NCBI RefSeq assembly: GCF_018305005.1
Contig: NZ_JAGQEG010000016.1
Coordinates: forward strand, 1 to 64,000
DNA: 64,000 nt
Direction: 5' to 3'
Source: Collimonas silvisoli
Lineage (GTDB): Bacteria; Pseudomonadota; Gammaproteobacteria; Burkholderiales; Burkholderiaceae_D
This document shows positions 5,469 to 20,509 of this stretch, piece by piece (the first letter of the stretch is position 1; each line of letters starts with the position of its first letter). Made by a program: the position numbers and the translations under genes. A model generated the notes under the pieces. That model made no database searches. It was not told the DNA's origin and was given only the letters and a program-made list of their open reading frames with translations.

Positions 5469-6527
5469 ATGCCCGATCTCGCTCAAGCAAACATCAAACT
5501 GACTTCCTTTTCGCACGGCGGCGGTTGCGGCTGCAAGATCGCGCCCGGCGTGCTGGCGGAAATTCTCAAGAATTCGAGTGGCTTTCCTGTGCCGAAAGAA
5601 TTGATGGTCGGGATTGAAACCGCCGACGACGCCGCCGTCTACAAGCTGAACGACGAACAGGCGCTGATTGCCACCACCGATTTTTTCATGCCCATAGTCG
5701 ACGATCCCTATGACTTCGGCCGTATCGCCGCCACCAATGCGATTTCCGATGTGTACGCCATGGGCGGCACGCCGATCATGGCGCTGGCCCTGGTTGGCAT
5801 GCCTATCGATAAACTGCCGCTGGAAGTCATCGGCAAAATCCTCGAAGGCGGCGCGGCCATCTGCGCCGAGGCCGGCATTCCGATTGCCGGCGGCCATACC
5901 ATCGATTCGGTTGAGCCGATCTATGGCCTGGTGGTGCTGGGCCTGGTCCATCCCTCCAAAGTCAAGCGCAATGCCGGCGCCAAGGCAGGCGATAAACTCA
6001 TCCTGGGCAAGCCGATCGGTGTCGGCATTCTGTCGGCAGCGCTGAAAAAAGGCGCGCTGGATAGCGCAGGTTATGCCGCGCTCATCAGCAACACAACCAA
6101 ACTGAACACGCCGGGCCGTCTGCTGTCGGAACTGGCCGGGGTTAACGCACTGACCGATGTCACCGGGTTTGGATTGCTGGGACATCTGCTGGAGCTGGCG
6201 CGGGCCGCGAAGTTGTCGGCCAGGCTTGAAATGGGATTGATCCCCTTGTTACCGCAGGTGCAGCCACTGGCCGAACAGGGATACATCACCGGCGCCTCCG
6301 GCCGCAACTGGAACGGCTACGCGCAGGATGTGGTTTTGGCAGAAAACATCACATCGGTACAACGCAGCTTGCTGACCGATCCGCAAACCTCGGGCGGCTT
6401 GCTGGTTTCCTGCGATGCGGCTGCGGTGGCGCAGGTACTTGAATTGTTCCGGCGCGAAGGGTTTGCCGAAGCTGCTGTCATCGGTGAAATGACAGCAGGC
6501 AGCATCGCCGCAGAAGTTCTGGCCTGA
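5469..6527 (+). CDS. selD: Selenide, water dikinase (selenophosphate synthase)
   Basis: Makes selenophosphate from selenide and ATP in the cytoplasm. The glycine-rich N-terminus SHGGGCGCK carries Cys20 and Lys23, which correspond to the catalytic Cys17 and Lys20 of the Escherichia coli enzyme. The catalytic position is Cys, not selenocysteine. The AIR-synthase-like fold is visible in the DFFMPIVDDP and NAISDVYAMGG motifs and in the C-terminal DPQTSGGLL. Length 352 is typical. It follows mnmH as a likely two-gene operon. selA, selB and selC are not in this window, so from here the only visible use of selenophosphate is tRNA modification. Confidence 0.95.
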   Translation: MPDLAQANIKLTSFSHGGGCGCKIAPGVLAEILKNSSGFPVPKELMVGIETADDAAVYKLNDEQALIATTDFFMPIVDDPYDFGRIAATNAISDVYAMGGTPIMALALVGMPIDKLPLEVIGKILEGGAAICAEAGIPIAGGHTIDSVEPIYGLVVLGLVHPSKVKRNAGAKAGDKLILGKPIGVGILSAALKKGALDSAGYAALISNTTKLNTPGRLLSELAGVNALTDVTGFGLLGHLLELARAAKLSARLEMGLIPLLPQVQPLAEQGYITGASGRNWNGYAQDVVLAENITSVQRSLLTDPQTSGGLLVSCDAAAVAQVLELFRREGFAEAAVIGEMTAGSIAAEVLA

Positions 6528-6557
6528 AAAGGTTGGGATGCAAACGATTCAGAAACC

Positions 6558-7988
6558 TCAAGCCCGGTTTCTGAAAAACAGCGTATCGCCCAGCCATACC
6601 GCAATCATCGACACCCCCATCAATGGAAACAGGATGCCGAGGATCGCCATATAACTTTTCCAGCGCCTGATCGACGGCGGCGCTTGCAGCACGCGTTTCG
6701 GCGCACCCAGGGAATTCTGCGGGCGGCGCTGCCACCACATCACGAAGCCGGTGACAGCCATTGCCAGCAAGGTTAATGAAATAGCCGCGCAAATCAGCTG
6801 GTTCGTCAAGCCGAAGTATTCACCCATATGCAAGGCAACTCCCAGCGTAACCAGCTTGGAGACTGGGTTGTAGTCGGTAAAGCGCAGGTCTTTCATGATC
6901 TTGCCGCTGTATTGGTCGATATGCAGCGTGCGTTGCCGATCGAGGTCGGAGCGCAAGAACTCGCCAGCGCCCGGCGCATAGGCTGCGGTAAATACATCCG
7001 AACTTTTGCCAGGCAGCGCGAGTTGATAGGTTTGCATGCCGTTGCGCGCCGCGATCGCCGCCACCTGATCGATGCTCAGGGATTGGCGCGGCATGTCCTG
7101 CGACATCGGTACCGTGGTTGCGCCGACTGCCCACGGGATGTCGGCAAGCGGCAGGTCCTGCATCTTCATTGGCATATTCGGCATCGAATGATGAGCGTCA
7201 GCCGGCGCATCTGTTCCGTGGATGTGCTCGCTTTGCGCCGCTGCCTGTGGCCGCGGCGAGCCGGCCCAGGTCACGACAGCCTGGAAATTCTTGCCCCAGA
7301 AGCTGGACCACGGCAAGCCGCTCATGATGAAAAACAGCGCGCCGATCGAGACCCAGACGCCAACCACCAGATGCAGCTCGCGCCAGATAGCCCGCCCGCT
7401 CAGGTTAAGGCGGGGCAGCAAGGTGCCCCACACGGAAAACTGCTTGCGCGGCCACCACAAGGCGATGCCGGTGCCGAGCATGATCAAGGTCCAGCAAGCC
7501 GCCAGTTCCATCAGCCAGCCGCCCCATTTCCCCAGCAGCAGATCGCGATGGATTTGCCGCACCTGCTTCATCAACCTGTGTTCCACGCTGAGCGTGCCCA
7601 GCACCTGGCCTGTGTACGGATTCACATACACGCTGCTGCTGTCGCCGGACGCCAGACGGAATACCGCTTCGGTGCTGCGTCGCGGGTCCTGGCTGACGGC
7701 AATCGCGCTTGCTTTTGCATCCGCCGGCAATGCGGCAGCGGCGATGCCGAGCAGCTTGTCGTAACCAAGCCTTGTCTGCGTGCTGACAGGTACAAATAAT
7801 TTGTCGCCGTAAAGAACGCTTTCTATTTGCGGTTTGAATACATAGATGGACCCGGTAATCGCCAGCACGATTAAAAAGGGCATCACGAATAAACCGGCAT
7901 AAAAATGCCAGCGCCACAAGATGCGGTAATTGCGCGATGAGACTGAGCTGCTCTCGTCCGGCGCTGCTTGCTGAAAGACTGTCTGCAT
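6558..7988 (-). CDS. PepSY-associated inner-membrane protein (iron/metal uptake type)
   Basis: A multi-pass inner-membrane protein of the PepSY_TM/PiuB family, commonly next to TonB-dependent receptors and proposed to reduce or move the metal delivered by them. Membrane segments are seen near residues 24-48, 160-182, 205-230, 395-420 and 445-470, with PepSY-type periplasmic domains between. Conserved HRDLLLGKWG and HMGEYFGL motifs supply membrane-proximal His residues of the kind that could bind haem. A loop at about 253-280 is rich in His and Met (HIHG, HHSMPNMPMKM), which could bind copper or another soft metal. It lies 58 bases after the TonB-dependent receptor gene on the same strand and is probably co-transcribed. 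A 10-base inverted repeat overlaps its stop. Confidence 0.85.
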   Translation of the reverse strand: MQTVFQQAAPDESSSVSSRNYRILWRWHFYAGLFVMPFLIVLAITGSIYVFKPQIESVLYGDKLFVPVSTQTRLGYDKLLGIAAAALPADAKASAIAVSQDPRRSTEAVFRLASGDSSSVYVNPYTGQVLGTLSVEHRLMKQVRQIHRDLLLGKWGGWLMELAACWTLIMLGTGIALWWPRKQFSVWGTLLPRLNLSGRAIWRELHLVVGVWVSIGALFFIMSGLPWSSFWGKNFQAVVTWAGSPRPQAAAQSEHIHGTDAPADAHHSMPNMPMKMQDLPLADIPWAVGATTVPMSQDMPRQSLSIDQVAAIAARNGMQTYQLALPGKSSDVFTAAYAPGAGEFLRSDLDRQRTLHIDQYSGKIMKDLRFTDYNPVSKLVTLGVALHMGEYFGLTNQLICAAISLTLLAMAVTGFVMWWQRRPQNSLGAPKRVLQAPPSIRRWKSYMAILGILFPLMGVSMIAVWLGDTLFFRNRA

Positions 7989-8046
7989 GACTGTTCCTTG
8001 CTAAAAATGTTGTACGCGGCTTGCTGTCTGAATCTGCTTGAGCCCG

Positions 8047-10422
8047 TCATAGACTGACTTTGGCTTCCAGATAGAAAGTCCGGCCCGGGTAGGGGTAGTA
8101 GACGTAGTAGCGCCGATTGGTCAGGTTGTCGATGCCGATTCCCAGCTCGGTATTTTTGGTCGGCTTGAGCGTCAGTTTGGTGTCGAACACCAGGAAAGAA
8201 CTGGTGCCGCCGAAAGTATTCGGGTTGCTGTCGGTATTGGTCAGCGTGTTGTATTGCCGCCCGGAATAGCGCCCGGCCAGCATCACGGTGACCTGGTCGT
8301 TGATGCGATAGCTGCCGACCAGGTTGCTGCGCCACAAAGGGATGCGATAGAAATTCTTGCTGACGGTCGCCGGATTCTTGCTGTTTTCCAGGATGATCGA
8401 TCTGGTGTAGCCGACGCTGGCGCTCAGGTCCAGCCCGCGCAGGAAGACGTCTTCGGCGGAGTAGCTGAGTTCTATCCCGCGCGAGCGTACCCGGTCTATG
8501 TTCTGGATATTGGTCACATTGGGAAATACCGTCGTGTTGGTCTGGCTGAATAAGGTGTTCTTCACATCATCCTCAAACAAGGACATGCGCAGCATGCCCT
8601 TCAATTGCGACCATTCGGCGCTCAGCTCTTTCGCCAGATCGTTTTCCGGCTTGAGATTCGGGTCGTTGTTGACCAGCGTGGAACCGGTCAGGCTACCCTG
8701 GAATAGTTCGCTGACGGTCGGGAAGCGGTAGGCGCGACCGGTGGAAAAGCGGATTGTCAGGTCAGAGGAAGCCTTATAGGACAGCGCCGCCTTGGGCGAC
8801 CAGTAGGACAGGCTGCGGTTGTCGTAACGGCTGTCATAGCGTTGCGCGGAAGTGCCTGTGGCGCGAGCGCCGTCGTAGGCGCGCCAGTTTTCATAGCGCA
8901 CACCGTAGGTCAGTTTCCAGAGCTGGCTCACTTGCCACGCGTCCTGCGCAAACAGCGCCTGGGTTTTGGTCTTGCCGGCAAAGGCATTGTTGAAACCACC
9001 GCCGTCGCTGCGCCAGTTGCTCAGGTTGACGGTAGTATTTTCCAGGAAATAATTATCGTAGTGATAGCCGAAGGTCGGCCAATGGCTGCCGGCGTTGATG
9101 GTTGCCGGTTTGTAGTCTGCCGCCAGGTCCAGCGTTTTCCAGCCCGAGCCGTCGCCATAGGTGGCTACGCCGCTGGTATTGCCGGCCAGCCTGCTGCTGG
9201 CGGATCTGGCAATGCTCTTTGAAATGTCGAAATACGATGCAATCGCAGCGTAGTTCCAACCGCTGGCGTGACGGGTTTTCAGCGTCAAGCCGTACAGCTG
9301 GTTCTCGCTTTCGCTGGCCGCCGGCGCAAAGAAATTGTCTGGCAGCTTGTACTGATAACCGCCGATATTGACCAGGCCCGAATACACGGGATTACCTTTG
9401 GCGTCGCGCAAGAAAGTCTGGGTGCTGTTGCTCACCTGCTGGCGCCAGTAGCCGAAAGTGAAGCCGGCTTGCACGGCGGGCGTTATGTCGTAGACGGCCT
9501 TGAACTTGAACTGATCCTGCACCGCCCGCTCGGCGCCCTCGGCATTGACGCCGAAGATGGTGGCTGGAGCACCGTTAGGATTGGTGTATTGGTAGGCGCC
9601 GCTGACCGGAATCGCGGCCGCAGTTGCAATCTGGGTAGAGCGCAGCTGATTGGCATACACAAGAGGCTGGCCGGCATTGCTAAGGTGGTCTATGCCAAGC
9701 AGGAAGGACAGGTCGCCGATCTTGTTGCCGATGGCCGCGGTGCTTTTGTTACCGTCGAAATGACCTTCGACGCCGAACAGGCGGAATTGCTGGCTGAATA
9801 CCTGCGCCTTGGCCATTGCTTCCAGTCTGGTCGGCATCTTGGTGGTGATCGCAACTGTCGCCCCCATCGAATTGCCCGGGTATAGCGCGGAAAAGGGGCC
9901 GTAGATCACATCCACCTGTGCAATATCTTCCGGGGAAACCATAGACCAGCGCGGTGGGAAGCTAAACGTATTGCCGAGAAAATTGCTGAGCAACAGGCCG
10001 TCGGCATACACTAGGCCGCGTGCGGTCTGGGAGTTGCCGTTGCCGCGCACCGATATGGTGGCGTTTTCATCGCCGATAAAACGTTTACGAATCGCCATGT
10101 TGGGCATGTACTTCAAGGCGTCTTCAGTATTGATGACGTTGAGATTCTCTAGTTGCGCAGCCGTGATCCGTTCGCTGCTGGCGGGCAGGTTGGGATCAAG
10201 CACCCGCTTTTCCCTGGCGCCGGTGACTAACACTTCCGGCACCGCGTGCGTGTCCTCTTCTGCCGCCCATGCGCTTTGCGATAGCATGGGCAAGGCGAGC
10301 ATAAGGAAGAACGGCAGCGGCAGCAGCACCGCGGATAATCCGGATGACTGACGTAACAAATGTGGTGACGACAAGTAGCGGCGCGCTGAAACACTCTCGG
10401 TTTGCGCGAGCAAAGCAAGCAT
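8047..10422 (-). CDS. TonB-dependent outer-membrane receptor
   Basis: An outer-membrane gated channel for a metal chelate or similar substrate. A long N-terminal signal region runs to about residue 54 (SAWA). A TonB-box-like EVLVTGARE at about 60 follows, then the plug domain with typical ISVRGNGNSQ and VDVIYGPFSALYPGNSMGA motifs, and a 22-strand barrel to the C-terminus YLEAKVSL. Length 791 is normal for siderophore-type receptors. The start is the ATG at 10422. The neighbours are DUF2946 upstream and a PepSY membrane protein downstream, a common arrangement for metal uptake. The substrate is not identifiable. Copper is an inference from the DUF2946 CxxC and the Met-His loop in the PepSY protein. 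Confidence 0.9.
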   Translation of the reverse strand: MLALLAQTESVSARRYLSSPHLLRQSSGLSAVLLPLPFFLMLALPMLSQSAWAAEEDTHAVPEVLVTGAREKRVLDPNLPASSERITAAQLENLNVINTEDALKYMPNMAIRKRFIGDENATISVRGNGNSQTARGLVYADGLLLSNFLGNTFSFPPRWSMVSPEDIAQVDVIYGPFSALYPGNSMGATVAITTKMPTRLEAMAKAQVFSQQFRLFGVEGHFDGNKSTAAIGNKIGDLSFLLGIDHLSNAGQPLVYANQLRSTQIATAAAIPVSGAYQYTNPNGAPATIFGVNAEGAERAVQDQFKFKAVYDITPAVQAGFTFGYWRQQVSNSTQTFLRDAKGNPVYSGLVNIGGYQYKLPDNFFAPAASESENQLYGLTLKTRHASGWNYAAIASYFDISKSIARSASSRLAGNTSGVATYGDGSGWKTLDLAADYKPATINAGSHWPTFGYHYDNYFLENTTVNLSNWRSDGGGFNNAFAGKTKTQALFAQDAWQVSQLWKLTYGVRYENWRAYDGARATGTSAQRYDSRYDNRSLSYWSPKAALSYKASSDLTIRFSTGRAYRFPTVSELFQGSLTGSTLVNNDPNLKPENDLAKELSAEWSQLKGMLRMSLFEDDVKNTLFSQTNTTVFPNVTNIQNIDRVRSRGIELSYSAEDVFLRGLDLSASVGYTRSIILENSKNPATVSKNFYRIPLWRSNLVGSYRINDQVTVMLAGRYSGRQYNTLTNTDSNPNTFGGTSSFLVFDTKLTLKPTKNTELGIGIDNLTNRRYYVYYPYPGRTFYLEAKVSL

Positions 10423-11007: not shown

Positions 11008-11895
11008 TCATGCGGCCGTTTTGCCGGCTGCCAACTGCGCTTGCTTCATCTCGCTCAGCAGGCAGTGCAGCATCTCGCTCGACAGCCCGTGCAATACAAG
11101 GCGGTAGCCGGCGCCGAGGGTGGACATCGGCACCAGCGGATGCTTGTTGTTCAACAGCAGCAGGTGCTGGGGAGAGTTGAGGATGGTGGCCGCATACACT
11201 GCCATGGTTTCATCCAGTTGCAGCGAATTGGCGGCGCGCCAGAAATCGTTATCGGTCAGGAACAGCTGGTAGACCGGCGTAAAAATCTCGATCGCGGTCT
11301 GCAGGTCGATGAAGTTGAGAGCGCGCTGCGGCATGGCCGCCAGCGCCAGCGGCGGCTCGCTGATCATGCTGAAGTCGACCTCTTGCACCGCCGCCAGGGC
11401 CTTGCCTTCGGAGCGCAGCTGCTGGTTGAGCCGGATCACGAAATTGAACAGGTTCAGGTCATGTTTCAAAAACAGCTCGTCGCCCAGGTCGTCGATCGTC
11501 AACGGCGTCAGCGGCGTCAGGGCGACGCCGACCGGCGCGTTGCGCTCGATGAATTCGATGATCTGCGCGCCAACGTGGAAGTGGCGCAGTATCAGCCAGT
11601 TGGCCTCGGGCGAGACGAATCCTTTCAAGCCCCATACCAGCAGGCGGTGCAGTGTTTTCGAGGCCGACCAGCGCTTCGGCAGGATCGTCTTCAGGATCTG
11701 GATCAGGATGATCATCAGCCGCGCCAGCGGCCGTACGAACGGCAGCAGGTACTGGCGCGATGGCGACGCCAGGTCGTGCAGCCAGGCGCTCTTGACCGGA
11801 TCCGGCAGCGGCGTGCTGCCATCCAGGTAGAGCGCCAGCCAGGGATTGGGATCGCGCGGATCGTGCGCGCGCTGCAGGAAATCGTCGCTTTGCAT
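11008..11895 (-). CDS. Unrecognised protein, last gene of ketosynthase-oxidase operon
   Basis: I do not recognise this 295-residue protein. It has no signal peptide. A hydrophobic stretch near residues 53-70 (PFVRPLARLMIILIQIL) could be amphipathic or membrane-associated. Notable segments are ANWLILRHFHVGAQIIEF and DELFLKHDLNLFNF, with His and acidic residues that might bind metal, but no known motif is complete. The C-terminus is Ala/Lys-rich. It starts 16 bases after the ketosynthase-oxidase gene ends, on the same strand, so it almost certainly belongs to the same operon. Its role, enzyme or accessory, should be read from that context only. Confidence 0.6.
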   Translation of the reverse strand: MQSDDFLQRAHDPRDPNPWLALYLDGSTPLPDPVKSAWLHDLASPSRQYLLPFVRPLARLMIILIQILKTILPKRWSASKTLHRLLVWGLKGFVSPEANWLILRHFHVGAQIIEFIERNAPVGVALTPLTPLTIDDLGDELFLKHDLNLFNFVIRLNQQLRSEGKALAAVQEVDFSMISEPPLALAAMPQRALNFIDLQTAIEIFTPVYQLFLTDNDFWRAANSLQLDETMAVYAATILNSPQHLLLLNNKHPLVPMSTLGAGYRLVLHGLSSEMLHCLLSEMKQAQLAAGKTAA

Positions 11896-11911
11896 GGTTT
11901 CGGCCCGGTAA

Positions 11912-13798
11912 TTAATCTTGTATATGTTCCAGCTGCATCAGGTACAGCTGCGCGGTGCGCTTGGCGGTGGCGTAGATTGCCTCAGCCGCCTTTGGATCCA
12001 GGGCCAGGGTGATCTCCACCGCGGTTAGCCAGCGCGCCAGGTGATGTTCATCGTTGGCGCCGTGGTATTCCAGGAAACGGAATGCCTGCGGCGGCAATGC
12101 CACCTGCTGGCGCAGCAAGGGCAGCAGCGCCGGCACGATCCGTTGTCCGGTGCCTTCGATAATGTAGATGGCGCCCAGCAGCCCGACCGGGTTGGAGTTA
12201 GAGGCCAAGGCGTGCAGATAGCTGTTGAGCGCTTCGCCGCCGGGATTGCGCTTGAGCGCCTCCAGCGGCAGTTCACCGCCGGCCGCCTGGTAGTCCTGGT
12301 ATAGGATCTGGAAATCGTTCTGCTCTTCGCCGGCATGGGTAGTGATGAGCTGGCCGAGCGCGGCAAACTCGCCGTTGAGCGAGGTCACGGCTTCGCGCAT
12401 CCACAAACTGCCTTCCTTCACTTGCGGCACCCACTGCGCGGTCCAGTTGCGGTAGGCGGCGACGTCGAAACGGCCGCTGACCAGGCGATGGATCACGGGG
12501 GTGCGCCAGGCTTGCGAACGGTAGTCTTGCCACAGGCTGGCAAGGCGCGTCAGCAGAGGCTGCAGCGGCAGCGGCGCAGCCTCGGGCTGATGCGGGGCGG
12601 CGATCGCCGGCGTGGCGGCGCTGGCGCCGGGACTGTCGCCCGCCGCCGCGGCAGACTGCACGGATTCAGGCGCGTTCGCATCTTCCACCTCAAACAGCAT
12701 GTAGGCGGCAGTGATGCGGCCCGATTCCGGTATGAAGCAGAAAATCTTTTCGCCGGCGTGCAGCGTCTTTTCCTGCAGGAATTCCGCCAGCATGATGAAA
12801 ATCGACGCCGCGCCGGTATTGCCGCGGGTAGCCAGGTTGCTGTACCAGCGTTCAGGCGGGATGGTGAGCCCTGCTTTGGCCAGCAACTCTTCCACCACCG
12901 GCATGAATTTGGCGGAAGAGTAGTGACACAGGAAATGGTCAACCTCTTCAGACTTGATCCATCCTGCTTCCACCAGCTTGACGTACTCGTGGATGCAGAC
13001 ATCGAACAGATGCGGCAGCAGGCGGATATCCTGGCGCAGCGACAGTGCGCCTGCGGCTTCAGCTTCGCCAGAAGAGGCAAAGTCCAGGAATGATTTGCTG
13101 CGGTCTTCCGTCAGGCCGAGCTGCATGCAGACCGGATAGTCCCCGGAAAAGCTTTTCTGGTGCACCCATTTGAGCTTGATGCGCAGGCCGTTGCGCGACC
13201 GCGGCTGGCGGCTGAACAGCATCGCTCCGGCGCCGTCAGATAGCATCCAGCGCAAGAAGTGCGCGTCGAAATCGCTCTGGTAGCCGCGCGGAGCAAAGCG
13301 GCTGCGCTTGAACATGCGCGACGGCATTTCGGCGGCGACCGCCAGCGCCAGCTGGTGAGTGCCGAGTTCTATCGCCTGCGCGGCAAATTCTATGGCGCTG
13401 ACGCCGGCCGCGCACACGCCTTGGCTGGACAGGGTTTGCATGGGCGGTGCGCCCAGTTCGCCCTGGATCATGTTGGCAAAGCCTGGCATCAGGGCGTCGC
13501 CGCCGGAAGATCCTACGCTCAGCAAGGAAACCTGGTCTAGCGTGGTATCGATCTGCCGCAGGCAGTCGCGGATGGCGCCGGCCGCCAGCTGGGCGTGGCT
13601 TTGCCCGGTATTGCCATCGGCGTCGATGGCATAGTGTCGCGTCCGTATGCCATTCTCGGCCAGGATGCGCTGCTTGATGCGGGCAGAGATGCGGTTGATC
13701 GGAGCGATATAGCGATCCATGTCGTCGTTGCCGACGGGTGCGCCGGGCAGGTGGAATCCTGCGGCGGCGAGATATACGCGGTTGAACTCAGTTGGCAT
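11912..13798 (-). CDS. Ketosynthase III (FabH-like) fused to haem-oxygenase-like diiron oxidase
   Basis: A 628-residue two-domain enzyme. Residues 1-370 are a thiolase-fold ketosynthase of the FabH kind. Cys129 lies in SSQGVCAAG, His292 in CHYSSAKF, and Asn327 in GNTGAAS, so the Cys-His-Asn triad is intact. This would condense an acyl thioester with malonyl-ACP or load an acyl group. A Pro/Ala-rich linker (about 372-415) leads to a C-terminal domain of the iron-containing redox (HDO, TenA-like) superfamily. Likely metal ligands are His488 and Glu491 or Glu492 (THAGEE), Glu548 (YIIEGTGQ) and His579, Asp583, His586 (EYHGANDEHH). HDO relatives do oxidative C-C or N-O chemistry, for example alkene formation by UndA. 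The start overlaps the desaturase stop by 11 bases, suggesting translational coupling. The product is unknown. Confidence 0.8.
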   Translation of the reverse strand: MPTEFNRVYLAAAGFHLPGAPVGNDDMDRYIAPINRISARIKQRILAENGIRTRHYAIDADGNTGQSHAQLAAGAIRDCLRQIDTTLDQVSLLSVGSSGGDALMPGFANMIQGELGAPPMQTLSSQGVCAAGVSAIEFAAQAIELGTHQLALAVAAEMPSRMFKRSRFAPRGYQSDFDAHFLRWMLSDGAGAMLFSRQPRSRNGLRIKLKWVHQKSFSGDYPVCMQLGLTEDRSKSFLDFASSGEAEAAGALSLRQDIRLLPHLFDVCIHEYVKLVEAGWIKSEEVDHFLCHYSSAKFMPVVEELLAKAGLTIPPERWYSNLATRGNTGAASIFIMLAEFLQEKTLHAGEKIFCFIPESGRITAAYMLFEVEDANAPESVQSAAAAGDSPGASAATPAIAAPHQPEAAPLPLQPLLTRLASLWQDYRSQAWRTPVIHRLVSGRFDVAAYRNWTAQWVPQVKEGSLWMREAVTSLNGEFAALGQLITTHAGEEQNDFQILYQDYQAAGGELPLEALKRNPGGEALNSYLHALASNSNPVGLLGAIYIIEGTGQRIVPALLPLLRQQVALPPQAFRFLEYHGANDEHHLARWLTAVEITLALDPKAAEAIYATAKRTAQLYLMQLEHIQD

Positions 13799-14663
13799 TT
13801 TTCTTCCCTGGCTGCATAAGGCTGCGGCTGGCCCGGTGCGGCAGCAGCAGACTCAAAATGAAAGTACGGAACATATAAGGCAGTAACGGTCCTGCATTCA
13901 GTTGCGGATGCACCAGGTGGCGGTAGCGCTGGTGCAGGGCGGACAATTGCGTCCAGTGCGCACGCGGATGGCGATGGTGCGCCGTATGCAAGCCGATATT
14001 GAATAGCAGCGGATTGACCAGGCCCTCGAAATTGCGGGCGAAGTCGGTCGGCGAATCGCCGTCCGCATGCGCATGCTGCAGATAGTTGGTGGCCAGCAGC
14101 CAGTGCAAGCCGTGCAGCTGAGGCAGCAGCACCAGCAGCAGGAATTTGTGCCAGTCGAGCCAGGCCAGCAGCATCCACAGCAAAGCCACTGCGAGGTATT
14201 GACGCAGGAAGTAACGGAATACGCCGGCATGGCGCCTGCGCATGCGCAGCAGCCAGCGCCATATCAGGGGATACAGGGCAAGCGCGGCCTGCACCGGATG
14301 CAGCAGGTAACCGAGCAGATGGTTGGTGTCGCCGCCGAAACGGTAAGTGCGCGCCACGTCCAGCGGGCCGTGGCGGTTGCGGTGATGGTTGCCGTTGTGC
14401 GCCGGATAGAAGACGAAAGTGGGATGGCCTTGCAGCAGGGTGATCCAGAAATCGGTGAGGCGGTTGAGTTGCCGCCCGTTCCACATGCGCAAATGGGCGT
14501 GGTTGTGATGGATCACGCCTGTGCCTAAGGTCAGGAATAGCAGCAAGCCGTACAGCAGCGCGTTCAGCAGCGACAGTTCCGGATGGCGCCAAAGATAGGC
14601 TGCCAGCAGCGGCAAGGCAATGAGATACGCCAGGCTTTGCCAGTCGCGGCGGTTACGCAGCAT
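13788..14663 (-). CDS. Membrane fatty acid desaturase
   Basis: An integral-membrane diiron desaturase of the acyl-lipid/acyl-CoA type. Three His clusters are present: HHNHAH near residue 53, HNGNHHRNRH near residue 91, and HTAHHRHP near residue 222. Hydrophobic segments surround them. The start is the ATG at 14663 (MLRNRRDW), giving 291 residues. Upstream codons of the same open frame read across the previous gene and are not protein-like. It overlaps the hydroxylase gene by 11 bases and the ketosynthase-oxidase gene by 11 bases, so the three are tightly coupled. The substrate could be a free lipid, acyl-CoA or an acyl-ACP bound to the pathway. Confidence 0.85.
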   Translation of the reverse strand: MLRNRRDWQSLAYLIALPLLAAYLWRHPELSLLNALLYGLLLFLTLGTGVIHHNHAHLRMWNGRQLNRLTDFWITLLQGHPTFVFYPAHNGNHHRNRHGPLDVARTYRFGGDTNHLLGYLLHPVQAALALYPLIWRWLLRMRRRHAGVFRYFLRQYLAVALLWMLLAWLDWHKFLLLVLLPQLHGLHWLLATNYLQHAHADGDSPTDFARNFEGLVNPLLFNIGLHTAHHRHPRAHWTQLSALHQRYRHLVHPQLNAGPLLPYMFRTFILSLLLPHRASRSLMQPGKKNAN

Positions 14664-15432
14664 TCTGCTTCTCGTCCGGTTTCGCACCGCGGGCAATCCT
14701 GGCTTCCGCCGCATCGGGCGCCAGTTCGGTGGCAAACAGCCGGTCCATGAACGGGAACATGAAGCCGTAATTGCCGTGGTAGCAGGCGTGGTGCAAATGA
14801 TGGCGGCGCGCGCCGTTGAGCCACCAGCGGTCGCGGTCGGCGTCGGGCAGGTAATCGTAGTTGGAATGGCCGATGTTGTTGAACACGATGCTGAAAACCG
14901 GCACGAAGGCCAGCGAATAAATGCTGAAATCGTGCAGCAGCATGGGCAGCAGCAGTACATTGCCCAGCATCATGGCTTCCAGCGGCGTGAAGCTGTAGCA
15001 AGTCCATGGCGTGGTGACCACTGAACGGTGATGCGGCAGGTGAAAACGCTTCAGCCACGAAACATGCAGCAGCCTGTGGCTGAGGTAAAAATGCACTTCA
15101 TTCCACACCACCATGAACAGGATTTCCAGCGCGATCTGCCAGCCTGATGCTTGCTCGGCCAGCCTGGCCCAGCCGAGCTGCAGCAAGCCCCAGGGGAATA
15201 CCATGCCGGTGCCGAACAGGAATATGGTGACGGCGGATTCGCCCAGTTCGCGCCGCAGCTGCCGCGGCGCCAGCGGCCGCGGATCGAGCACCCGGCCATA
15301 GCCGAAAGCGGGCAGGATGCAGCGGCTGAACAGCCAGTTGATGCTTCCGAAAACAAAATACAGGCAGGCAAAAAATACGATGCCAACGCCCATGATGGTG
15401 TGCCACTGGCAAGTCAGGATGAAATCGCGCAT
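14653..15432 (-). CDS. Fatty acid hydroxylase/sterol desaturase superfamily enzyme
   Basis: A membrane diiron monooxygenase of 259 residues with four or five membrane segments. The characteristic His boxes are HFYLSHRLLH (about 123-132), HLPHH (about 141-145) and ARRHHLHHACYHG (about 219-231). Such enzymes hydroxylate or desaturate sterols, fatty acids, carotenoids or ornithine lipids. It opens the minus-strand operon. The ATG at 15432 has only a weak ribosome binding site. The 219 bases before it hold a 10-base palindrome ATGATATCAT near 15530 but no promoter I can defend. Paired with a desaturase and a ketosynthase-oxidase, it suggests tailoring of a modified alkyl chain. Confidence 0.85.
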   Translation of the reverse strand: MRDFILTCQWHTIMGVGIVFFACLYFVFGSINWLFSRCILPAFGYGRVLDPRPLAPRQLRRELGESAVTIFLFGTGMVFPWGLLQLGWARLAEQASGWQIALEILFMVVWNEVHFYLSHRLLHVSWLKRFHLPHHRSVVTTPWTCYSFTPLEAMMLGNVLLLPMLLHDFSIYSLAFVPVFSIVFNNIGHSNYDYLPDADRDRWWLNGARRHHLHHACYHGNYGFMFPFMDRLFATELAPDAAEARIARGAKPDEKQNAA

Positions 15433-15651: not shown

Positions 15652-16332
15652 TTACATGTCGACCGGTGGCCTGGCTTCCAGTTGCTGCAGCGACGCGATC
15701 AGGTCGACAAAGCGCTGCCCCTGGACCGTGACGTGCTGGCGCAGCAGGTCGGCCGCCAGTTCGCTGTCGCCGGCGATGATGCCTTGCACCACGCCGTCGT
15801 GCTCCTGGTATGACACTTTCAGGCGGTCGCGCACCCGCAGCTGCAGCCGCCGGTAAGGCCGCAGCCGGCGATGCAGCGACCGAGCCTGGGTCGCCAGGAA
15901 GGCGTTATGGCTGCCTTCATAGATGGCGTCATGGAAGGCTTCGTTCTTGTAGAAATAGGCGTCGGGATCGTGCGCGTCGCGCGCTTCCATGCATGCCTGG
16001 TGCGCCGCCAGCAGGCCGGCGTGTTCCTCGCCCGACATCCTGCGCGCCGCCAGACGGCCGCACATGGCTTCGAATTCCGCCATCACCTCGAACATCTCCA
16101 CCAACTGGCGCGGGCCGATTTCGGCGACCACGGTGCCGCGTCGCGGCCGGGTTACTACGATGCCCATCGAAGCCAGCTGAATCAATGCTTCCCGTATGGG
16201 AGTGCGGGATACGCCGAATTTGATTGCCAAGTCGGTCTCGTCAAGATGCTGGCCCGGGCGGAACTCACCAACTGCGATCATTTCTTCGATGGTTTCGCGT
16301 AGCGATTCCGAGCGATTTTTTGTCGTGAGCAT
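15652..16332 (-). CDS. GntR family (FCD/FadR-type) regulator of the TRAP operon
   Basis: A winged helix regulator of 226 residues starting at the ATG at 16332. The N-terminal winged helix includes LDETDLAIKFGVSRTPIREA, the typical GntR recognition region. The C-terminal all-helical FCD domain contains the metal or ligand pocket residues in FEAMCGRLAARRMS and NEAFHDAIYEGSHN. The longer open frame upstream reads across the promoter region and is not protein-like. The gene is divergent from the TRAP genes, and a TGTATACA dyad sits at the TRAP promoter. This places it as their repressor, released by the transported acid or a metabolite of it. Confidence 0.87.
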   Translation of the reverse strand: MLTTKNRSESLRETIEEMIAVGEFRPGQHLDETDLAIKFGVSRTPIREALIQLASMGIVVTRPRRGTVVAEIGPRQLVEMFEVMAEFEAMCGRLAARRMSGEEHAGLLAAHQACMEARDAHDPDAYFYKNEAFHDAIYEGSHNAFLATQARSLHRRLRPYRRLQLRVRDRLKVSYQEHDGVVQGIIAGDSELAADLLRQHVTVQGQRFVDLIASLQQLEARPPVDM

Positions 16333-16392
16333 AATTGGTCCGTTTCTGGGATTATGTGTATTCGAGATTTGATTGTAAGGCGTATTTATTCG

Positions 16393-16429
16393 TTGACATG
16401 AAAATGTTTTATGGAATATTGTGTATACA
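16393..16429 (+). promoter_or_regulatory. TRAP operon promoter with GntR operator
   Basis: TTGACA at 16393-16398 and TATTGT at 16417-16422 are 18 bases apart. The 8-base palindrome TGTATACA at 16422-16429 begins at the last base of the -10 element and covers the expected start site. This is the palindrome form used by several GntR/FCD regulators. The divergent GntR gene lies on the other side of the intergenic region, so repression by it is the simple reading. Confidence 0.55.
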
Positions 16430-16529
16430 AGGAAACATAAAAAGAATACATAACATCTATCTTCGGCAATAACGGCTTGAAAAGTAGCTAAAACCAAAGC
16501 GGTAGTTTTCCCATAACAGGAGAGGGGAT

Positions 16530-17549
16530 ATGTCTTCAATCAGCAGAAGGACCGTGCTGGGCGCGCTCGCAAGCACACCGTTCTGGTCTATGCCGTCAGC
16601 CTGGGCGCAGTCCAGCGCCTTGAAAATTTCCCACCAATTTCCCGGCGGCACCATCAGCGAAGGCGACTTCCGTGATCGCCTGACCCGCATGTTCGCCGCT
16701 GAAGTCAGCAAGCGCACCAACGGCAGTTTGAAATTCGAAATCTACCCCGGTTCTTCCTTGATGAAGACCAATTCCCAATTTTCTGCACTGCGCAAAGGCG
16801 CCCTGGATTTCTCCCTGGTGCCGCTCAATTACGCCGGCGGCGAAGTGCCGGAGGTAAACATCGGCCTGATGCCCGGGCTGGTGACTTCGTATGAGCAAGG
16901 CGCGGCCTGGAAGAATGCGGAAGTCGGCAAGGAATTGTCGCGCATCCTGCTGGAAAAGGGCGTCATCATCGTCAGCTGGATCTGGCAGGCCGGCGGTGTC
17001 GCCTCGCGCAGCAAGCCGATCGTCGATCCGGCCGATGCCAAGGGGCTGAAGGTGCGCGGCGGTTCGCGTGAAATGGATATGATCCTGAAAGAAGCCGGCG
17101 CTGCAGTGGTGACCCTGCCTTCCAATGAAATCTATGCAGCGATGCAGACCGGCGCGATGGACGCCGCCATGACCTCGTCGACCTCGCTGATTTCCTTCCG
17201 TCTGGAAGAAGTATCGAAGAGCCTGACCAGCGGCCGCGATAAAGCCTATTGGTATATGTTGGAACCCTTGATGATATCCAAGGCGACTTACGACCGCCTC
17301 ACCAAGGAACAGCAGGCAGCGGTGATGGCAGTCGGCGCCGATATGGAGAAGTTTGCCCTGAACGCGGCGCGGCTCGACGATTCCGGTGTGGCTGCGGTAT
17401 ATCAGAAAGCCGGCGCCAAGGTGGTCGACTTGAACGCGGCGACTGTCAAGAAGTGGCAGGACATCGCCCGTACTACAGCGTGGAAGGATTACGCTGCAAA
17501 AAACGACAACTGCGCCAAATTATTGAAACTGGCTGAGAAACTGCTATGA
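16530..17549 (+). CDS. dctP: TRAP transporter substrate-binding protein (DctP type)
   Basis: A periplasmic binding protein that captures an organic acid for the TRAP permease. The N-terminus SRRTVLGALA followed by a hydrophobic stretch and AWA looks like a twin-arginine-type or Sec signal peptide cleaved near residue 26. The mature part shows the DctP fold, with GGTISEGDF and YPGSSLMKTNSQFSALRKGA segments. The conserved Arg that bonds the substrate carboxylate is probably in KGLKVRGGSREMD. Length 339 is typical. GGAGAGG precedes the ATG at 16530. It overlaps the small permease gene by ATGA. The ligand is not predictable in detail; the mdcH remnant downstream hints at malonate or a related diacid. 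Confidence 0.9.
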   Translation: MSSISRRTVLGALASTPFWSMPSAWAQSSALKISHQFPGGTISEGDFRDRLTRMFAAEVSKRTNGSLKFEIYPGSSLMKTNSQFSALRKGALDFSLVPLNYAGGEVPEVNIGLMPGLVTSYEQGAAWKNAEVGKELSRILLEKGVIIVSWIWQAGGVASRSKPIVDPADAKGLKVRGGSREMDMILKEAGAAVVTLPSNEIYAAMQTGAMDAAMTSSTSLISFRLEEVSKSLTSGRDKAYWYMLEPLMISKATYDRLTKEQQAAVMAVGADMEKFALNAARLDDSGVAAVYQKAGAKVVDLNAATVKKWQDIARTTAWKDYAAKNDNCAKLLKLAEKLL

Positions 17550-18133
17550 GCCACGGCTTCGATGCGAAGCCAAACGCCGGGCCTGTCTTGCCAGCCGTCC
17601 CGGACAATCCGGCAGTGGCAGTCTTGGCCGGCATCCTCGAACGCTTCAATCAGCTGGCTTTGTATCTGTCCATGGCGGCGCTGATGTCGACGGCGCTGAT
17701 CATGACCTATTCGGTGGTGGCGCGCTATTTCTTCCATGTTCCTACCGACTGGCAGGACGACGCCACGGTATTCATGCTGGTCGGCGTGATCTTCCTGTGC
17801 GCCGGTTACGCCCAGTCGTATCGCGGCCATATCGGCATCGAAGCCTTGGCTTCGATCTTGCCGGCGGCGGTGAACGCGGTGCGTTTGCTGCTGGTCGATT
17901 TGGTCTCGTTCGTATTCTGCGGCTTCTTCTCATGGAAATCGTGGGCGCTGTTCCATGAAGCATGGTCGGAAGGACAGACCACCTCATCCACTTTTGCGCC
18001 GCCATTGTGGATTCCCTATGCGCTGATGGCGCTTGGCATGACGGCGCTGACTTTGCAGTTGCTGGTGCAAGTGCTGGCGCGCCTGACGGACCGCAGCGCG
18101 CCTGCTAATCCACAAACCGTTTCGGGAGAGTGA
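17546..18133 (+). CDS. dctQ: TRAP transporter small permease (DctQ type)
   Basis: The small membrane subunit that, with DctM, forms the sodium-driven TRAP permease in the inner membrane. It has 195 residues and four hydrophobic helices (about 32-55, 68-88, 108-128, 150-172), with the family motif YARYFFHVP-like VVARYFFHVPTDWQDD after the first helix. A cytosolic N-terminal extension of about 30 residues is longer than usual. ATGA overlap with dctP and TGATG overlap with dctM show translational coupling of the three genes. Confidence 0.88.
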   Translation: MSHGFDAKPNAGPVLPAVPDNPAVAVLAGILERFNQLALYLSMAALMSTALIMTYSVVARYFFHVPTDWQDDATVFMLVGVIFLCAGYAQSYRGHIGIEALASILPAAVNAVRLLLVDLVSFVFCGFFSWKSWALFHEAWSEGQTTSSTFAPPLWIPYALMALGMTALTLQLLVQVLARLTDRSAPANPQTVSGE

Positions 18134-19482
18134 TGAGTCCGCTTGCCTTGGGTGCTTTGTACGGCATCGTCACCATTGTCGTGATGTGTTCCGGCATGCC
18201 GATTGCGTTTGCGCTCGGCGTGGTCGCAACCAGCTTCATGTACTTCTTCATGCCGGCGTCCTCGCTCGATACGATCACGCAAAACGTCTACGAAGAAATC
18301 GCCTCGGTCACCTTGCTCTCGATTCCCCTGTTCATTTTGAAAGGGGCGGCCATCGGCAAATCACCGGCCGGGCGCGATCTGTATTCGGCGATCCATGCCT
18401 GGTTGAACCGGGTGCCGGGCGGCCTCGGCATTGCCAACGTCTTTGCCTGCGCCTTGTTTGCAGCGATGGCCGGTTCCTCGCCGGCGACTTGCTCAGCCAT
18501 CGGTTCCGCCGGCATTCCGGAAATGCGGCGGCGCGGTTATTCGCCGGGCTTCGCGGCCGGCATCATCGCCGCCGGCGGTACGCTGGGCATCTTGCTGCCG
18601 CCTTCGATCACCATGATCTTGTATGCGGTGGCGTCGGAGCAATCGCTGGGCCGGCTGTTCCTGGCGGGAGTCGGTCCCGGCGTGCTGCTGGTGATCCTGT
18701 TTGCCGGCTACGCGGTGTACCGCGCCCGCAAGGAATACCGGATTGCGCACGAGATCTATCGCCAGGGCGGCGTCAAGTCCGCCTATCTGGATGACGAGCA
18801 TTTCACCCTTGCGCAAAAAGTCGAGATGCTGCCGCGGGTGCTGCCTTTCCTGATTTTGCTGATCGGCGTGATGATTGCCTTGTACGGCGGTTTTGCGACG
18901 CCCTCCGAAACCGCCGGCCTGGGCGCATTGCTGGCGATCGTGCTGATCGCGCTGGTGTATCGCATGTGGCGGCCGCGCGACCTGGCGCCGTTCCTGAATT
19001 CGACCATCAAGGAATCCTGCATGCTGCTGCTGATCATCGGCATGTCGCTGCTGTATTCGTATGTGATGAGTTACTTGCACATCAGCCAGTCGGCGGCGCA
19101 ATGGGTGGTGGCGCTGCATCTGTCGAAATGGCTGCTGCTGGCGGTGATTCTGCTGATGGTGATCGTGCTTGGTTTCTTCCTGCCGCCGGTGTCGATCATC
19201 TTGATGACCGCGCCTATCATCTTGCCGCCGCTGCGCGAGGCAGGGTTTGACTTGATCTGGTTCGGGGTGGTGATGACGGTGGTGATGGAGATGGGCCTGA
19301 TCCATCCGCCGGTGGGCTTGAACCTGTTTGTCATCAAGAATATCGCGCCTGACATTGCTCTATCGGATGTGATCAAGGGTACGCTGCCGTTCCTGCTGCT
19401 GATGTTCCTGGCGATCATCCTGCTGTGCCTGTTCCCCGGCATTGTGACCGGGGTGCCCGATATGTTGATGGGAGCCAGGTGA
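18133..19482 (+). CDS. dctM: TRAP transporter large permease (DctM type)
   Basis: The large channel subunit, 449 residues with about twelve membrane segments, of the ion-transporter superfamily. The hallmark FKNIAPDIALSDVI-like NLFVIKNIAPDI segment and two conserved Gly/Pro-rich helix-breaks (AAMAGSSPATCSAIG; GFFLPPVSIILMTAPII) lie in the two symmetric halves. I use the ATG at 18133, which overlaps the dctQ stop as TGATG, and not the GTG three bases earlier. Its stop overlaps the ATG of the broken mdcH-like gene the same way. Co-transcription of that gene was therefore intended. Confidence 0.9.
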   Translation: MSPLALGALYGIVTIVVMCSGMPIAFALGVVATSFMYFFMPASSLDTITQNVYEEIASVTLLSIPLFILKGAAIGKSPAGRDLYSAIHAWLNRVPGGLGIANVFACALFAAMAGSSPATCSAIGSAGIPEMRRRGYSPGFAAGIIAAGGTLGILLPPSITMILYAVASEQSLGRLFLAGVGPGVLLVILFAGYAVYRARKEYRIAHEIYRQGGVKSAYLDDEHFTLAQKVEMLPRVLPFLILLIGVMIALYGGFATPSETAGLGALLAIVLIALVYRMWRPRDLAPFLNSTIKESCMLLLIIGMSLLYSYVMSYLHISQSAAQWVVALHLSKWLLLAVILLMVIVLGFFLPPVSIILMTAPIILPPLREAGFDLIWFGVVMTVVMEMGLIHPPVGLNLFVIKNIAPDIALSDVIKGTLPFLLLMFLAIILLCLFPGIVTGVPDMLMGAR

Positions 19483-20509
19483 TGGATAGCCGGCGCTGGG
19501 ATTTGCGCAACGCCAATCGCGAACAGCGCTTGCAGCGCGCCGCCGGCATCCTTGGCAGCGCCTGCAAAGGCAAACTGGTTTGGGCCAGCCGCTGCAGCAG
19601 ATACTGGCTGACGATGCCCTGATGTTTTCCAACCGGCTGGCGCAGCCGCTGATCGTGGCGGCGACCGCAGCGGCCTGGTCGGCGTTGCAGCCGCTGTTGC
19701 CAACTCCGGTATTGGCGGCCGGTTATAGCGTAGGCGAGATCGCCGCCTATCATATTGCCGGCGCCATTTCTGCGCCGCAGGCGATCCGGCTTGGAGCCTC
19801 GCGCGCGGCCTTGATGGACGCTTGTTTGCAAGCGGCGTCGCCGCAGGTTTTGTTCGCGGTGAGCGGCGTCGCGGTCCGCGCATTAGCCGCCTTGCTCGCG
19901 CGGCATCGCCTGTATGTGGCGATCGAAACCGACGCCGATAGCTGCATCGCGGGCGGTCTTGTTCAAGACATGGTTCTGGCGGCAAGCGAGATCGTCCATC
20001 TGGGCGGCAGAATCCGCGTGTTGCCGGTGACGGTGGCTTCTCACACGCCTTTGATGGATGGCGCCGTGCTGCCGTTTTCGCAGCAGCTGCGCCGGGAATT
20101 TTCAGCAAACCCACAACTGCCGGTGCTGTCGGGCTTGAACGGGCAGGCGCTGATAAAAAAAGAACAAGCGATCACCGTGCTGTCCCGGCAGATGGTGCAA
20201 ACCATCCACTGGGACGCATGTATGGACGCCTGCGCCGAGCAGGGTGTCACGGCAGCGCTGGAGCTGGGCCCGGGGGCGGCACTGTCGCGCATGCTGCGAG
20301 AGCGTCACCCGCAGATCGCTTGCCGCTCGCTGAGCGAGTTTCGCTCGCTGCAAGGCGTGCACAGCTGGTTGCACCGCTTGCGATGTGGGTCATGCTGTGT
20401 TCGGCGGCCGTCAGAATTTCTCCGCATCCGGCATCAGCTGCAAAAACGCTTCGATGAAATTGGCCGTCATCGCTGGCGCATCGCGCCGGTAAATCAGCGC
20501 CACGACTGA
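19482..20509 (+). pseudogene. Damaged mdcH-like malonyl transferase gene
   Basis: The main frame from about 19560 on encodes an acyltransferase most like betaproteobacterial MdcH, which transfers malonyl from malonyl-CoA to the malonate decarboxylase acyl carrier. Catalytic Ser (GYSVGEIAAY) and His (VASHTPLMDGAV) are kept. Three faults show. The gene opens at 19482 in another frame (MDSRRWDLRNANREQ) and shifts to the main frame near 19560-19580. The usual N-terminal GQG.Q oxyanion-loop motif is absent. The normal end (FRSLQGVHSW) is followed by about 50 unrelated residues into the 3' end of the LysR gene. The TGATG junction with dctM suggests an old operon. Function is probably lost. Alternatively, programmed frameshifting would need proof. 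Confidence 0.65.

Follow-up and report, generated by a model that had tools for sequence, protein, structure and literature searches.

What does an enzyme make that carries a ketosynthase (KS) and a haem-oxygenase-like diiron oxidase (HDO) in one chain, and which of the genes around it belong to the same pathway? The question is raised by a four-gene operon in the 5.66 Mb genome of Collimonas silvisoli (assembly GCF_018305005.1), within the first 64,000 nucleotides of contig NZ_JAGQEG010000016.1, the stretch referred to here as the window. An earlier note on the window had placed four open reading frames here; all were found, on the minus strand and spanning 15432-11008, with Pfam matches over cut-off. 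The 295-residue protein that the note had left unrecognised belongs to Pfam family DUF6999. Together, KS, HDO and DUF6999 form a module that recurs in distant bacteria and may produce an alkyl-ring lipid, along a route that resembles the dialkylresorcinol pathway without being identical to it. The features of the locus, core first, are as follows.

11912..13798, minus strand: KS-HDO fusion protein, 628 residues; ACP_syn_III_C at 39 (cut-off 26.6) and Haem_oxygenas_2 at 43.7 (cut-off 28.9) in one chain
12680..13798, minus strand: StlD/DarB-type KS domain, residues 1-373, with Cys129, His292 and Asn327
12572..12679, minus strand: interdomain linker, residues 374-409; model confidence low at 382-398
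11927..12571, minus strand: HDO domain, residues 410-624; PF14518 at 43.7 bits against a gathering score of 28.9, the match limited to residues 522-619
12314..12337, minus strand: HDO helix 1 motif, His488-x3-Glu492-x2-Asp495; in the alignment, 50/50 rows and 7/7 further rows
12155..12157, minus strand: HDO helix 2 candidate ligand, Glu548; 50/50 rows of the alignment
12041..12064, minus strand: HDO helix 3 motif, His579-x3-Asp583-x2-His586; 50/50 rows of the alignment
11008..11895, minus strand: DUF6999 protein (PF22523), all-helical, third core member, 295 residues; Pfam 433.2 bits against 27, covering 275/275 positions
14653..15432, minus strand: membrane fatty acid hydroxylase, FA_hydroxylase (PF04116), accessory, 259 residues; Pfam 80.8 bits against a cut-off of 31
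13788..14663, minus strand: membrane fatty acid desaturase, FA_desaturase (PF00487), accessory, 291 residues from the ATG at 14663; Pfam 80.3 against 29.7

Conservation of the module

A profile search of genome contigs with an alignment of eight KS-HDO proteins gave at least 582 confirmed relatives, of which the best 80 were kept as loci, so that the sample leans to close kin. Among these 80 the top named record is a metagenome-assembled genome (MAG) of Collimonas fungivorans (L022), 94% identical over the best segment. KS and HDO are a single open frame in 75 of the 80 loci, with a linker of differing length, and are separate neighbours in the same order in four loci from gammaproteobacteria (L090, L093, L096 and L098). 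At L089, a MAG contig labelled Bordetella parapertussis, the two adjoin but are out of frame with each other, and read-through meets stops; this locus was counted as unfused, and the split may reflect gene decay or faulty assembly. KS and HDO are thus linked in all 80 loci, as expected from the earlier note's view that the two belong together, and in none of them are the domains separate and unrelated in context, the arrangement that the note had named as speaking against it.

Tabulation of the neighbours, which the note had proposed alongside the search for the fusion, identified DUF6999 as the most constant of them. It lies within 4 kb of KS-HDO in 77 of the 80 loci and always downstream of HDO, the gap in the window being 16 bases; for L022 the DUF6999 match is one of 25 residues at a contig end, the contig of L095 stops 170 bases past HDO, and flanking sequence is scant at L067, L083 and further loci on short contigs. 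Homologues of the fatty acid hydroxylase and of the desaturase are found within 4 kb in 52 and 49 loci, respectively, and all four operon genes together in 46. Against the 77 loci with DUF6999, these counts led us to reject the hydroxylase and the desaturase as members of the core. That core consists of KS, HDO and DUF6999, and the other two enzymes are accessories. The earlier note, which had built its pathway on these two, is supported in part; the oxidative breakage or rearrangement of an alkyl chain that it inferred may or may not take place.

The same association is seen from the side of DUF6999. Three genome sets that overlap in part (398, 289 and 274 genomes) were searched for the family, independently of KS-HDO; DUF6999 was located in 18 different genomes, and in 16 of these KS and HDO adjoin it (judged from match coordinates in G000, G003, G027 and G071). 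When 14 of the neighbourhoods were searched, KS and HDO adjoined DUF6999 in the same order in 12, and one, L129, held KS and DUF6999 as fragments only. In L102, L121, L122, L123 and L124, which are probably from alphaproteobacteria, a label drawn from their belonging to another class of the same phylum, KS and HDO are separate adjoining genes. The gene order of the module is kept across proteobacteria, Bdellovibrionota and cyanobacteria, and the wider neighbourhood varies between loci, as judged by eye in 30 neighbourhoods. Antisense open reading frames confound gene calling in these genomes; neighbours were called with a codon-usage score and genes named by eye. Within Collimonas the module is patchy, being present in 5 of 15 genomes including that of the window, and in the phylum DUF6999 is rare (9 of 398 genomes).

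Two further evolutionary scenarios were considered. Exchange of DUF6999 partners between lineages, hinted at by identity tables, had no tree support (approximately unbiased (AU) test, p 0.558 and 0.338) and was rejected. Two independent fusions may or may not have occurred, as the KS tree is weakly against a single fused clade (AU p 0.037) and the HDO tree is not (p 0.449); numerous branches are weakly supported in the trees of HDO and DUF6999, both of which gave long-branch warnings.

The ketosynthase, the oxidase and DUF6999

The intact Cys129/His292/Asn327 triad described in the earlier note is present in all 50 aligned KS rows, that of the window included; the aligned rows were drawn from beta- and gammaproteobacteria, Bdellovibrionota and cyanobacteria. 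The note had called the domain FabH-like, correctly identifying a ketosynthase, but its type is that of StlD/DarB. The best NCBIfam model is StlD/DarB NF005293 (E 1.4e-98), StlD is first in a sequence search of the PDB (E 1.1e-60), and in the VIA structure search StlD (5gk0) is again first, with Z 50.1 and an rmsd of 1.8 over 363 aligned residues, followed by AbyA1 (Z 38.8) and OleA (Z 38.2). The predicted model of KS-HDO has a mean pLDDT of 90.0 and a pTM of 0.72. StlD/DarB ketosynthases make cyclohexane-1,3-diones or stilbene precursors, and the type of the KS points to ring formation.

A KS tree was calculated from 54 rows, comprising 25 fused, 12 separate, nine canonical DarB-type and eight FabH sequences (the row of L120 held a stop). 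The 37 module rows fall outside the canonical DarB clade, and the tree is compatible with their forming one clade (AU p 0.541). In addition to the KS fold and the catalytic triad, the module and DarB/StlD enzymes share 23 fixed positions (36 or more of the 37 module rows, all nine canonical DarB rows) at which the commonest residue in the eight FabH rows is a different one; one position alone is fixed differently between module and canonical rows. Because of this pattern of fixed positions the KS looks DarB-like, of a lineage of its own.

In the Azoarcus dar gene table, darA encodes the aromatase, darB the cyclase, darE a BtrH-like protein and darC an acyl carrier protein (ACP) (PMC3949708). 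DarA was searched for at E <= 1e-3 with the FMN_red-like proteins that adjoin the KS of L010 and L011 as queries, the name DarA being taken from their position in the dar layout and not from a curated model. L010 and L011 served as both queries and subjects, so the independent canonical loci are L130-L136 alone, and in all seven a DarA homologue, with 39.9-53.4% identity, adjoins the KS. Beside the KS of the 94 module loci with available flanks (a set that includes L089 and, although not intact modules, L126 and L129) no DarA homologue was found at this threshold, nor was a DarE homologue found in these loci. In the genome of the window there was no DarA homologue at E <= 1, in a search run without a positive control. 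As in the dar cluster, the KS gene of the module adjoins the gene of an oxidative partner, but the partner is HDO, fused or adjacent, and DUF6999 is present. Since DarA lies beside the canonical KS and beside none of the module KS, which have HDO at this place, we infer that HDO stands in the place of DarA.

The HDO family profile has one convincing relative of solved structure, PDB 3dde (E 3.5e-11), a protein with the haem-oxygenase-like fold whose function is not known. In the predicted model the HDO region is helical; the rows returned by VIA cover the KS, residues 1 to approximately 375. His488, Glu492, Asp495, Glu548, His579, Asp583 and His586 are each found in all 50 HDO rows, and the helix 1 and helix 3 motifs also in 7/7 further rows (L102, L120-L124 and L128). 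Six of these seven residues were among the ligand candidates of the earlier note, which did not name Asp495; its further candidate, Glu491, falls away, the position being variable (D 28, E 20, Q 1, A 1 in the 50 rows). In AetD the ligands are D76-x2-H79, E140 and H172-x3-E176-x2-H179, and helix 1 is kinked at the site (PMC11611611). The helix 3 motif of the module, H-x3-D-x2-H, matches the H-x3-E-x2-H of AetD, while on helix 1 the module has H-x3-E-x2-D in contrast to the D-x2-H of AetD (PMC11611611). Helix 1 of the predicted model is broken between 492 and 495, which fits the kink reported where helix 1 of an HDO provides ligands (PMC11611611). With the HDO superfamily (UndA, AetD, SznF, CADD) the module HDO has in common PF14518, the helix 2 Glu, the H-x3-D-x2-H of helix 3 and, in the model, a helix 1 broken at the motif; unlike these enzymes it is fused or linked to a KS.

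The standalone PF14518 proteins of L012, L013, L014, L016, L017 and L019, from the same family or order, are 24-29% identical to the HDO domain and, unlike it, have the canonical E-x2-H helix 1, with Y488, E492 and H495 (window numbering) in 6/6. In their genomes the KS matches lie on other contigs or, in L017, about 160 kb off. The simplest reading of the alignment would be an exchange of His and Asp across helix 1, with the predicted metal site kept and its set of ligands changed.

DUF6999 has 15 positions that are invariant in 46/46 rows, D25, H105, H145, D146, D197, D228, H269 and E274 among them, and an apolar helix near residues 45-69. No sequence in the PDB was matched at E <= 1, and the predicted model (pLDDT 89.8) gave no clear match to solved structures, the best being E 0.59 with Foldseek and Z 3.2 with VIA; a comparison of the DUF6999 and HDO profiles indicated no relation (probability 0.1%). 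It may be, as a guess, a membrane-associated metalloenzyme.

A proposed route and its alternatives

A tentative proposal, and the one we prefer, is that two acyl chains are joined by the KS to a cyclohexanedione, which HDO, taking the place of DarA, then oxidises. The locus would be a three-part lipid-making module with two membrane tailoring enzymes. The KS would condense a beta-ketoacyl and an alpha,beta-unsaturated acyl thioester, both from primary fatty acid metabolism, to a dialkyl cyclohexane-1,3-dione that retains the ring carboxyl, as thought for DarB. The ketosynthase that forms 2,5-dialkylcyclohexane-1,3-diones we take to be DarB, consistent with a reference listed in PMC3949708. Enzymes of this class produce these diones from the same two kinds of thioester (PMC4578411). 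With dioxygen and iron, HDO would then strip two hydrogens to give a dialkylresorcinol or a close oxidation product; the simplest way would be a desaturation coupled to the loss of CO2, as in UndA. By our own reasoning the thioester carboxyl of the first ring product would adjoin a hydrogen-bearing carbon, so that a reaction of the UndA type would aromatise the ring in one step. The covalent or operon linkage would pass an unstable intermediate from KS to HDO, DUF6999 would take the next step, at either the ring or the thioester, and the desaturase and hydroxylase would alter the alkyl chains in the membrane.

This proposal is drawn from the nearness of the KS to StlD, the 23 shared positions, the cyanobacterial module KS that passes the curated StlD/DarB cut-off, the missing DarA, the linkage of KS, HDO and DUF6999, the break in helix 1 of the model and the substrates of known HDOs, which are mostly fatty or amino acids and undergo olefin-installing cleavage, desaturation or N-oxygenation (PMC13108848). 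In its boldest form it is a doubtful one: an undescribed oxygen-dependent route to alkyl-ring lipids, found in proteobacteria, Bdellovibrionota and cyanobacteria, would combine a DarB-like KS with a new HDO subclass (H-x3-E-x2-D) that aromatises by oxidative decarboxylation instead of DarA, and DUF6999 would add to this pathway an enzyme family that is likewise new.

Several points weigh against the ring-forming route. To our knowledge no product, substrate or activity has been described for any member of the module, and the role given to DUF6999 is a guess. The window KS scores 330.4 bits against the curated NF005293 cut-off of 450, as compared with 321.7 for L102, 374.2 for L096 and 461.8 for the cyanobacterial L085, which passes; all nine canonical DarB rows pass it and form a clade of their own (100/99), outside which even L085 falls. 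Given the missed cut-off and the separate canonical clade, the chemistry of the KS may have drifted. Position 495 is Asp in 50/50 module rows and not the helix 1 His that follows the carboxylate in the canonical 3-His/3-carboxylate ligand set, the His being at 488 instead; with the usual His absent, HDO may bind metal differently or may not be a normal diiron oxidase. The earlier note was right that neither an ACP nor an adenylating gene is among the four operon genes, and in the ACP the operon differs from the dar cluster (PMC3949708). The association also has its exceptions, as two Variovorax loci (L057 and L064) have KS-HDO with no DUF6999 within 10 kb downstream and L126 carries DUF6999 without KS or HDO.

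Of the alternatives, the one that survives best, and which we consider unlikely, is that the KS condenses two acyl chains without forming a ring, as OleA does, and that the long beta-keto product is then turned into a ketone, an alkene or a hydroxy lipid through cleavage or hydroxylation by HDO. OleA and PpyS, which are head-to-head ketosynthases, are like the module KS thiolase-fold enzymes that join two acyl chains, OleA is one of the fold matches that come next after StlD, and a desaturase and a hydroxylase are usual neighbours for chain lipids; UndA, moreover, is an HDO that decarboxylates fatty acids (PMC13108848). StlD is, however, about 12 Z units above OleA. The catalytic base is Glu117 in OleA and Glu105 in PpyS (PMC4578411), whereas the expected segment of the window KS, residues 99-113, contains no Glu, and at position 104 all 50 rows of an alignment that does not include OleA have M, L, V, I or A.

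A rather unlikely explanation is that the module serves primary metabolism and supplies it with a structural or redox lipid, for example one that is quinone-like or membrane-modifying, by chemistry other than that of the remaining readings. It would agree with the setting of the module in otherwise differing neighbourhoods, as seen by eye, and with a short protein encoded divergently to KS-HDO in some cyanobacteria (L092 9058-9723, L099 9086-9598 and L100 9087-9596), whose match to Coq4 is weak and under the curated cut-off (L092 and L099 tested). An accessory product would fit better with the patchy occurrence in the genus and the rarity in the phylum, as judged by DUF6999.

It seems improbable that HDO is non-catalytic or protective, as a TenA-like scaffold or in metal or peroxide handling, with KS and DUF6999 making the product. 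The Asp in place of the canonical helix 1 His would suit such a role, and the desiccation factor DtpC is an HDO tied to survival of oxidative stress (PMC13232832), but none of the seven polar residues at the putative metal site varies among the 50 rows, the helix 1 and helix 3 motifs recur in the 7/7 further rows, and a scaffold would not need them. Entry of the KS product into a nitrogen-containing pathway, with HDO as an N-oxygenase or cleaving enzyme like SznF or FlcE, is very improbable, for although several characterised HDOs have amino acid substrates or catalyse N-oxygenation (PMC13108848) and in L060, L066 and L072 aminotransferase-like genes, named by eye, occur within a few genes of the module, no such gene was seen by eye at a recurring place in 30 neighbourhoods, and the most recurrent neighbours in the 80 loci are the fatty acid hydroxylase and desaturase.

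Accessory genes and the meaning of the module

The overlaps of 11 bases reported in the earlier note for the upstream genes both hold, the desaturase sharing 11 bases with each neighbouring gene, provided that it starts at the ATG at 14663; its reading frame remains open further upstream, to 14960. None of the four operon proteins had a PADLOC match at E <= 0.01, and terminator- and promoter-like sites at the operon are no more frequent than expected by chance. Upstream, at 15652-20509, are a GntR-type regulator and TRAP-transporter-like genes followed by an acyltransferase-like open reading frame (19580-20509), all named by eye.

Other genes occur near the module elsewhere. In the separate-gene modules of gammaproteobacteria (L090, L093, L096, L098 and L128) a membrane protein that is rich in His and about 185 residues long is encoded upstream of the KS; it may replace the hydroxylase or desaturase there, and the L096 protein had no Pfam match over cut-off. 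One relative, L008, has a PF10118 'predicted metal-dependent hydrolase' (532-1419) directly upstream of KS-HDO, where other loci have the hydroxylase and desaturase. About 50 bases after DUF6999 in L102 lies a gene (5697-9098) for a 1133-residue protein that resembles by eye an Aas-like MFS-acyltransferase-ligase and had no match in the 13 other DUF6999-anchored loci searched; a protein of similar look is encoded about 3 kb after DUF6999 in L023 (16376-18256). The genome of Caulobacter vibrioides, included as a control, has matches to both PF22523 (DUF6999) and PF14518 (Haem_oxygenas_2) over cut-off. From these matches C. vibrioides may carry the module, which might then be studied in a genetically tractable organism.

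No description of the KS-HDO fusion or of DUF6999 was found in the open-licence PMC papers searched, and a paper elsewhere is possible. The parts are of known kinds, while their combination and the helix 1 motif appear to be new; the three-enzyme module is widespread and apparently undescribed. It ties DUF6999 and an unusual HDO subclass to a specific type of ketosynthase, and so offers concrete, testable chemistry for both. The change between His and Asp at a metal-ligand position would test how far the ligand sets of HDOs vary. If HDO does the job of DarA, one ring-forming pathway would have two different oxidative partners in nature.

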